Assembly: GCA_022560615.1 (NCBI GenBank)
Contig: JADFSR010000002.1
Coordinates: 1 to 64,000 of the forward strand
Direction: 5' to 3'
DNA from: Gemmatimonadota bacterium
GTDB lineage: Bacteria; Gemmatimonadota; Gemmatimonadetes; Longimicrobiales; Gaopeijiaceae
Length of the DNA: 64,000 nt
The notes under the pieces are model-generated. The model searched no databases. It saw nothing but the letters and a program-made list of their open reading frames with translations, and was not told the DNA's origin. Numbering within the stretch: position 1 is the stretch's first letter; every line of letters begins with the position of its first letter. The position numbers were made by a program, and so were the translations under genes. Shown piece after piece: positions 1,810 to 3,768 of this stretch.

Positions 1810-2424
1810 ATGGAAAACCTTGATGCCTTCCTGGGTAGCTACGGCTACTGGGTGTTCTTCGCCGTGGGCTTCGTGGAGTTCGTCGGAGTGCCCATCGTCA
1901 GCGTACCGGTGCTCATCGGCGGAGGGGCGATGGTGGCCTCAGGGACACTCGGCTTTTGGCCGGTTGTCCTGTCCGTGGCGTCAGGCGGCTGGCTCGCGGA
2001 CCTCGGATGGTACTGGGTAGGTCGTCGGCAAGGCTCTTGGTTGATCGATGTAGCCTGCCGTCTTTGGTCCAACCCGAGGGCCTGTGTCTCGACGGTCAAG
2101 GATCGCCTTTCCCGCATGGGCACTCCATACATCCTGCTTGCGAAGATGCTTCCCGGGTCAGGAAACCTCATCGCCGTGGCCGCAGGTCTAGCCGGCTTCG
2201 GGACCCTTCCCTTTATGCTCGCCGACGCCGCCTCGCTGATCCTGTGGGCGGCGATCTACACGGGTACCGGTTGGATCCTTTCTGATCAGGTGGCAGCAGC
2301 GATCGAGTGGGCACTGACGTACAGCTGGGCGGCGATGGTGGTCTTGATATTGCTCGTCCTTGGTGCGTTCTGGCGGCGACGTGAAGTGCAGAGGCCGTCG
2401 GTTCGCGACCGTCTCCTAGGCTAG
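1810..2424 (+). CDS. DedA-family membrane protein (SNARE-associated / VTT domain)
   Basis: A 204-residue inner-membrane protein. It has the DedA layout: an N-terminal re-entrant region near FVEFVGVPIV (residues 20-30), the conserved central segment with GTPYILLAKMLPGSGNL (about 105-121), and two C-terminal helices ending in a basic RRREVQR tail. DedA proteins are thought to move undecaprenyl phosphate or phosphatidylethanolamine across the membrane and to support envelope homeostasis; the lipid here is unknown. The usual F-x-x-R-x-x-P-G-x-R motif is relaxed to AKMLPGSGN. The start ATG has GGGAG 7 nt upstream. Its 3' end overlaps the convergent epimerase gene by 9 bp. Confidence 0.85.
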   Translation: MENLDAFLGSYGYWVFFAVGFVEFVGVPIVSVPVLIGGGAMVASGTLGFWPVVLSVASGGWLADLGWYWVGRRQGSWLIDVACRLWSNPRACVSTVKDRLSRMGTPYILLAKMLPGSGNLIAVAAGLAGFGTLPFMLADAASLILWAAIYTGTGWILSDQVAAAIEWALTYSWAAMVVLILLVLGAFWRRREVQRPSVRDRLLG

Positions 2425-3168
2425 ACGGACCAGGTCGCTCTTTGCGAAGAGTGCACCCGGGTCGGGAAGGTCGATCTCGGCGTAGAGTCGCCGAGGAACG
2501 CCGATGTCTGCGAGATAGAGCTCACCGACGTGCGCATGCGCCCGGCCCGAAACCAACCCGGTCTTCGGAAGGGCCAACGTCAGCGTGGCCGTGGCCCGTA
2601 CCGTGGACTCGCTTACGTCTCCGCTAGTGGCGTCCATCCCGGAAGGAACATCCAGAGCGAGGATCGGAGCTCCCCCCGACCCCGACCAGCGGATGAGAGC
2701 CTCGGCCCCGCCATGGGGAGCGCCGCGAAGGCTGTAGCCGATCACACCGTCGATGACCAGGTCTGGTGTAGGGCCTTCTAGGGTGGCCACCAGCTGTCCT
2801 GAAGAGACGACTTCGACACCGAGGCGGTGCAGGATGGCCAGCTGCTTGGCCGGTACCGGTGCGAAATGCTCCGGCTCCTGGGCCAGGACCGTCCGTATTG
2901 TCGCTCCCCATCCGTGAAGCCGGCGCGCCGCGACCAATGCACCGCCTCCGTTACCACCTGATCCGGCTAGAATCACCACGGTCTTTTCTTGGGGATCACC
3001 GTCCAGGAACCGATCGCGCGCCAAGGCCGCGAGGGCCCGCCCAGCGTTCTCCATCATCTGGATGAGATCGATCTCGTAGTTCTCAACCATGGCCTGATCC
3101 ACGGCGGCCATCTCAACGCTGGTGACGGCCGGTACGAGACGCATGGGAATCTCGGGGATTTCTCTCAT
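2416..3168 (-). CDS. nnrE: NAD(P)H-hydrate epimerase (YjeF N-terminal domain)
   Basis: A stand-alone YjeF_N protein of 250 residues; the ADP-dependent dehydratase domain often fused to it is absent. The family interconverts R- and S-hydrates of NAD(P)H so that the dehydratase can repair them. Visible features are MENAGRALA (about 39-47), the glycine-rich loop GSGGNGGGALVAARRL (69-84), and DGVIGYSL followed by LDVPSGMD (about 180-187). The usual GNNGGDG loop is changed to GNGGGAL, which other stand-alone members may share. The ATG at 3168 is chosen because it lies 8 bp after the redoxin stop; a longer reading would overlap that gene. It probably forms an operon with the upstream redoxin gene. 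Confidence 0.85.
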   Translation of the reverse strand: MREIPEIPMRLVPAVTSVEMAAVDQAMVENYEIDLIQMMENAGRALAALARDRFLDGDPQEKTVVILAGSGGNGGGALVAARRLHGWGATIRTVLAQEPEHFAPVPAKQLAILHRLGVEVVSSGQLVATLEGPTPDLVIDGVIGYSLRGAPHGGAEALIRWSGSGGAPILALDVPSGMDATSGDVSESTVRATATLTLALPKTGLVSGRAHAHVGELYLADIGVPRRLYAEIDLPDPGALFAKSDLVRLA

Positions 3169-3176
3169 CCGTTCGG

Positions 3177-3710
3177 TTACTGTGATCGTTTCTCCGAATA
3201 CACCCAGTCGGGCCGGCGGGACATGAGGGCTCGCAGATCCATGCGGATCTCTTCGGACGTGGGACGGCCGACGAACCACCAGCCGTTGTAGACCTTATAG
3301 ATCGTTCGATCCCGATCCAGGATGAACGTGTAAGGGAGGTATACCTCGCCGTGGGCCGGGTCCGTTCGATCCGTCATCTCCAGCTCGTGGAGCAGGCGGC
3401 GGTCGGGGTCCATGAGAAACGGCCAATCTGCTGCGAGCGCCGTGCGCGTCTCGGTGGTGTTCACACGGTCATCGACCGAGACAGTGATCATTTTGCAGTA
3501 GTTGACTCGAAACTCGGGCTGCAGTTGCTGCACATAGGTCGTCAACTGACGACGATCCTTTGGTCAGTAATATCCGCGGCTGAAAATCAGGACGGTAGGG
3601 AAGCCGCGAATTAATTTGGACAACTTCTGCGACTTGCCATCTTGATCGGGGAGTTCGAAGTCGAGAAACGTGTTTCCCACCTTCAAGTCGGGGTGTATCG
3701 GATAATCCAT
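3177..3710 (-). CDS. Redoxin (AhpC/TSA-like) selenoprotein with in-frame UGA = Sec49
   Basis: A thioredoxin-fold peroxiredoxin-like protein of 177 residues, if UGA at 3566-3564 is read as selenocysteine. The ATG at 3710 has an excellent site, GAGGAG, 4 nt upstream. The N-terminal part is clear redoxin: VGNTFLDFELPDQDGK (11-26), then GFPTVLIF. The active site reads FSRGYY-U-PKDRRQL, matching the family pattern RGxWCPxCRxQL, so UGA replaces the peroxidatic Cys and Asp52 replaces the second Cys. Coding continues in the same frame after UGA (YVQQLQPEF, ITVSVDD, LPYTFILDRD). The only other cysteine is Cys72. A SECIS-like hairpin lies just downstream of UGA. The neighbour is nnrE, 8 bp on. The alternative, a nonsense mutation in a Cys gene, is less likely because the change sits at the one catalytic residue and nothing else is damaged. 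Confidence 0.87.
3538..3566 (-). promoter_or_regulatory. UGA codon and candidate bacterial SECIS hairpin
   Basis: On the minus strand the UGA (3566-3564) is followed by 16 nt, then the loop AGUU (3547-3544) closed by the perfect 6-bp stem GUCGUC/GACGAC (3553-3548 with 3543-3538). Known bacterial SECIS elements have a short apical stem-loop within about 16-37 nt of UGA with a G among the first two loop bases; this one has G second. The hairpin lies inside coding sequence, as expected for bacteria. I see no long lower stem. Confidence 0.7.
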
Positions 3711-3768
3711 GTCTCCTCGCTCGTTCCGCGCCGAGGCGCATCAATTAGATCGAAAGTACCCAGCCCGG

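Follow-up and report, generated by a model that had tools for sequence, protein, structure and literature searches.

When an in-frame TGA interrupts a redoxin-like gene, does it end the protein or specify selenocysteine (Sec), and if Sec, what kind of enzyme results? The question arises at positions 3177–3710 (minus strand) of the window, the 64,000-nucleotide stretch of a Gemmatimonadota contig analysed here, for which a preliminary description had proposed a redoxin-family selenoprotein. Support for that proposal now comes from homologues with TGA or Cys, selection on both sides of the TGA, conservation of the hairpin codons and the Sec machinery of the genome.

The reading frame and its relatives

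The gene has 177 codons, from an ATG at 3710 to a TAA at 3179–3177, and its sole in-frame TGA (3564–3566, minus strand) is codon 49, in the context RGYY-U-PKDRRQL. Just 5' of the ATG is a ribosome-binding site GAGGAG (3711–3718, minus strand), its AGGAG sitting two bases from the start codon, and the GCGAGGAGAC of this site is also found 5' of the start codon in one homologue (L009). Translated with Cys at the TGA, the full frame hits Pfam AhpC-TSA (4.7e-17, residues 11–139) and Redoxin (1.3e-12), both matches spanning the TGA, and the protein scores 62.5 bits for PF00578/PF08534 against a cut-off of 26. The start, the ribosome-binding site and the redoxin likeness either side of the TGA are confirmed as first described. 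The expectation that gene callers would truncate at TTG 3545, with loss of the active site, also holds up, in that an open reading frame for 122 amino acids does begin there; this fragment matches AhpC-TSA at only 2.5e-7. Downstream, a YjeF_N gene (NAD(P)H-hydrate epimerase-like; 2416–3168, minus strand; Pfam YjeF_N 3.3e-40) has its ATG 8 nt past the selenoprotein stop, and so the two are probably co-transcribed in the window genome. This neighbour is not conserved, the Sec-form loci have no conserved synteny, and among them no conserved gene neighbourhood offers a clue to function. An Rfam scan over 2–5 kb of the window gave no match above cut-off.

A scan of a genome collection yielded 22 relatives. 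The codon aligned with the TGA is again TGA in eight (L009–L014, L020 and L022; 75–92% identity) and is TGC or TGT in 13, so the alignment with redoxins around the U, suggested at the outset as a check, places Cys there. The eight TGA homologues are full-length and spread over seven genomes besides that of the window, labelled Gemmatimonadota, Neomarinimicrobiota, KSB1 and, for one MAG, 'Alphaproteobacteria'; the sequencing error at 3564–3566 that the preliminary description had considered is therefore ruled out. Nine TGA genes, the window's included, and 13 Cys genes are otherwise collinear, the exchange being confined to one codon with no gaps around codon 49 in the protein alignment of the two forms, and all 21 members match both PF00578 and PF08534. 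Comparison of the window gene with each of the remaining TGA genes gives a dN of 0.03–0.24 5' of the TGA and 0.05–0.15 3' of it, with dS from 0.3 to saturated. Since dN is low where dS is high, the part 5' of the TGA is selected as protein in the same frame, and by these values both flanks of the TGA are under strong purifying selection.

Two incomplete sequences were also seen. In a betaproteobacterial relative (L028:3001–3336) the match begins at residue 60 and the N-terminal part is not recognisable, the active-site half being absent or replaced. One TGA gene is followed on its own contig, about 3 kb downstream, by another copy that is partial and starts near residue 94 (L011:6213–6524, the same as L046); the N-terminal part of this copy was not found. 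No relatives were found in viral contigs.

The downstream hairpin and the Sec machinery

Within the coding region a SECIS-like hairpin, GUCGUC-AGUU-GACGAC (3538–3553, minus strand; apical loop 3544–3547), has a stem that starts 10 nt past the UGA, a loop that starts 16 nt past it, and an energy of −7.5 kcal/mol. The 6-bp AGUU hairpin described earlier is thus present, with the 16 nt originally given for its beginning being the distance to the loop and not to the stem. It agrees with the published bacterial SECIS model as given in PMC13188914, at the lower limit of spacing (16 nt) and at the limit of energy, and so the claim that it fits bacterial SECIS rules is borne out, but as a single observation it is weak: 141 of the 1,610 TGA trinucleotides of the window (9%) have a rule-conforming hairpin of the same or better energy, and the hairpin alone was accordingly dropped as proof of recoding. 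When TGA genes were tested one at a time against nulls made by synonymous recoding, P ranged from 0.001 to 0.19, a further reason for not relying on the hairpin alone.

It is only by comparison between genes that the SECIS hairpin is well supported. Across nine TGA genes codons 53–56 have a codon identity of 0.94 against 0.47 at other invariant residues (P=1e-5), and no other stretch of the gene is as strongly conserved at synonymous sites, whereas in the set of ten Cys genes these codons fall below the average (0.30 against 0.41); the hairpin pair cells are formed in 96% of cases in TGA genes and in 38% in Cys genes. Covariation amounts to one double change, a compensatory U-A to C-G in L020. 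In several members the minimum-energy fold adopts a shifted register, UCGUCG/UGACGA, whose loop UCAGU has no G at its first two positions, and the L020 change favours the AGUU register over the shifted one. One Cys gene in a betaproteobacterial MAG (L015, 2898–3410) retains the TGA-type hairpin codons CGT CGT CAG TTG ACG and at the DNA level is nearest to the TGA gene L022; apparently it holds a relic SECIS left after a change from Sec to Cys.

The preliminary description had proposed a search for selA, selB, selD and tRNA-Sec and would have counted the absence of selA, selB and tRNA-Sec as refutation; all four are found in the window genome (4.5 Mb, 99% complete): tRNA-Sec on contig C15 (66 bits, with ARAGORN in agreement), SelA on C36 (5.9e-132), the C-terminal domain of SelB within a 635-aa frame on C38, and SelD on C1 (L034, G000:C1:137397–138323). 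The SelD gene has an in-frame TGA in SHGAG-U-ACK with the hairpin TGACGCAGGTTCTGCGTCA downstream of it, and SelD, too, is predicted to be a selenoprotein. An open reading frame with the motif TFCPLTGSG (L031:4788–5981), some 1 kb upstream of the tRNA-Sec gene, may encode a Cys-containing DUF3179 protein; in other organisms DUF3179 is one of the listed selenoprotein families.

Each of the eight genomes that carry the TGA form has tRNA-Sec, and in seven of them SelA is present too; it was not detected in the TGA-carrying MAG G005 (2.1 Mb), plausibly through incompleteness of that MAG. Among the 13 genomes with the Cys form eight have tRNA-Sec, five do not, and three have neither tRNA-Sec nor SelA, and so co-occurrence with tRNA-Sec (8/8 against 8/13) was set aside as proof and is suggestive only. 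SelA is found in 55 of 78 genomes of the window's family, the same-genus genome G138 among them, in which no close TGA form was found; the close TGA-form redoxin is rare, occurring in 3 of 395 sampled genomes of the phylum, the window's own counted. Genome searches in this phylum and in the phyla of two relatives apparently gave no Sec members beyond those of the collection scan. In the tree eight of the nine TGA genes, from several phyla, cluster and L022 falls among unresolved Cys lines; horizontal transfer into bacteria already decoding Sec is the simplest reading, with the caveat that phylum labels of MAG contigs may be wrong, that of L009 especially.

It might be held that translation really ends at the TGA, or that the TGA is a sequencing or assembly error, within a pseudogene or split gene from which the short protein starting at TTG 3545 is made, and that frame does exist and does still score for AhpC-TSA. 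The short protein would however have neither the active site nor the first strands, TTG 3545 is a plain Leu56 codon inside the hairpin, the Cys relatives are full-length, and the same TGA stands in eight other genes, most at near-saturated synonymous divergence from the window's; this sharing, together with the purifying selection 5' of the TGA, counts decisively against a stop or an error, and we consider either very improbable. Just as little credence goes to decoding of the UGA by near-cognate readthrough or under a reassigned code, for instance as Trp or Gly. Any recoding would leave the frame intact, but relatives with a sense codon at this position have Cys and never Trp, the neighbouring DUF4136 gene, which ends GGT TGA, uses UGA as a normal stop, the machinery for Sec is present, and the hairpin is kept in the UGA members and not in the Cys members as a group.

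The active site among known redoxins

With the UGA read as Sec, the product might still belong to a catalogued Prx-like family, SelL-related or the UxxC 'Redoxin family protein' for example, a less remote prospect than the former two although in our view an unlikely one. The selenoproteins of prokaryotes catalogued in a 2026 review include PF00578, PF08534 and cd02970 families with TxxU, UxxC, UxxU and UxxS motifs (PMC13188914), and the best NCBIfam match of the window protein is the SelL-related redox protein NF040769 (4.1e-9). That match reaches 36.3 bits against a cut-off of 120, however, and no NCBIfam model scores above its cut-off. A 2022 selenoprotein review adds a UGC form; searches of the two reviews did not show the UxxD motif, nor were 'UxxD' and 'selenoprotein' found together in the literature searched. 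All TGA members have UPKD and the Cys members CPKD or CPKE, position 52 being Asp throughout except for Glu in L025, L040 and L041, and so none has UxxC, UxxU, UxxS, UGC or TxxU. The UPKD redoxins are probably a subfamily, of a well-known kind, that is absent from published lists.

An AlphaFold model of the window protein (mean pLDDT 83.8, pTM 0.83) has the peroxiredoxin/TlpA-type thioredoxin fold, and its best PDB matches are BcpB (3.1e-12), PrxQ-type proteins and ResA. Sec49 aligns with the first Cys of the ResA CxxC and with the Thr of the PrxQ-type TxxC, and Asp52 occupies the peroxidatic or second-Cys slot, giving the motif UxxD; the initial placement of the UGA at the peroxidatic Cys is thus to be revised. 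RGYYUPKD likewise departs from the true-peroxiredoxin motif PxxxTxxC/U, with Sec at the Thr position and Asp at the peroxidatic one. Conservation of Cys72 is limited to the close subfamily; the distant homologue L029 has Thr at this position.

The Prx-like thiol:disulfide oxidoreductase selenoproteins (PF00578, UxxC/UxxU; bacterial 'Prx-like' and eukaryotic SelL) belong to the AhpC/TSA superfamily, as the window protein does, and like it carry Sec at the leading position of a CxxC-like motif, but the window protein has Asp at the second motif position and no resolving residue in the motif. The cd02970 peroxiredoxin-like UxxS selenoprotein (PMC13188914) is likewise of AhpC/TSA type with no resolving Cys in its motif, and it is by the described motif alone that UxxD is set apart from it. 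With the selenocysteine peroxiredoxins of TxxU type (e.g. that of Eubacterium acidaminophilum, cited in PMC13188914) superfamily and fold are shared, but there Sec is the peroxidatic residue, where the window protein has Asp52 and carries its Sec in the Thr slot. The ResA/TlpA thiol-disulfide oxidoreductases (e.g. PDB 1st9, 3c71) share the fold, with TM 0.64–0.68 by query length, and their nucleophile position matches Sec49; in contrast to them the window protein has Sec for Cys, no second Cys in the motif and, judging the sequence by eye, no N-terminal membrane anchor.

In the Chloroflexi MAGs of L016, L018, L021 and L027 the Cys form adjoins genes for 6-phosphogluconolactonase, glucose-6-phosphate dehydrogenase or 6-phosphogluconate dehydrogenase. 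Such oxidative pentose-phosphate neighbours in several Chloroflexi relatives hint, if faintly, at a redox role linked to NADPH.

Decoding, chemistry and significance

By the standard bacterial mechanism, a ribosome arriving at UGA 49 would meet the hairpin 11–26 nt downstream, which would recruit SelB with Sec-tRNA-Sec, and selenocysteine would go in without termination. The product would be a small enzyme with a thioredoxin fold, belonging to the AhpC/TSA-redoxin superfamily, with a single selenol at the N-terminal end of the active-site helix, in the attacking-Cys slot of CxxC, and Asp52 replacing the partner Cys. Its most likely chemistry would be a one-selenol reduction of peroxide or another oxidised substrate, in which a selenenic or mixed selenenyl-sulfide intermediate is resolved by an external thiol, with Cys72 as a possible alternative. 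The Sec form seems to have arisen from Cys forms, with a return to Cys probable in places, and it would move horizontally among bacteria that already decode Sec.

From comparative sequence evidence, then, we put at about 95% the reading that the gene encodes a selenoprotein, with a one-selenol redoxin as product, that has spread horizontally and switched between Sec and Cys. The more specific proposition is favoured with distinctly less assurance, namely that this is an unlisted UPKD subfamily with Sec in the attacking-Cys slot and an acidic peroxidatic slot, whose one-selenol chemistry would be unlike that of peroxiredoxins and thioredoxins and which would pass horizontally between Sec-decoding phyla with Sec/Cys switching.

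The locus would add a well-supported subfamily to the selenoproteins, one from which standard annotation would yield just the 122-aa fragment without an active site, and it indicates that these bacteria use selenium in more than SelD. Taken together, the Sec, Cys and apparent relic-hairpin forms would constitute a natural series bearing on the benefit of selenium in a redoxin that has no resolving residue in its motif.
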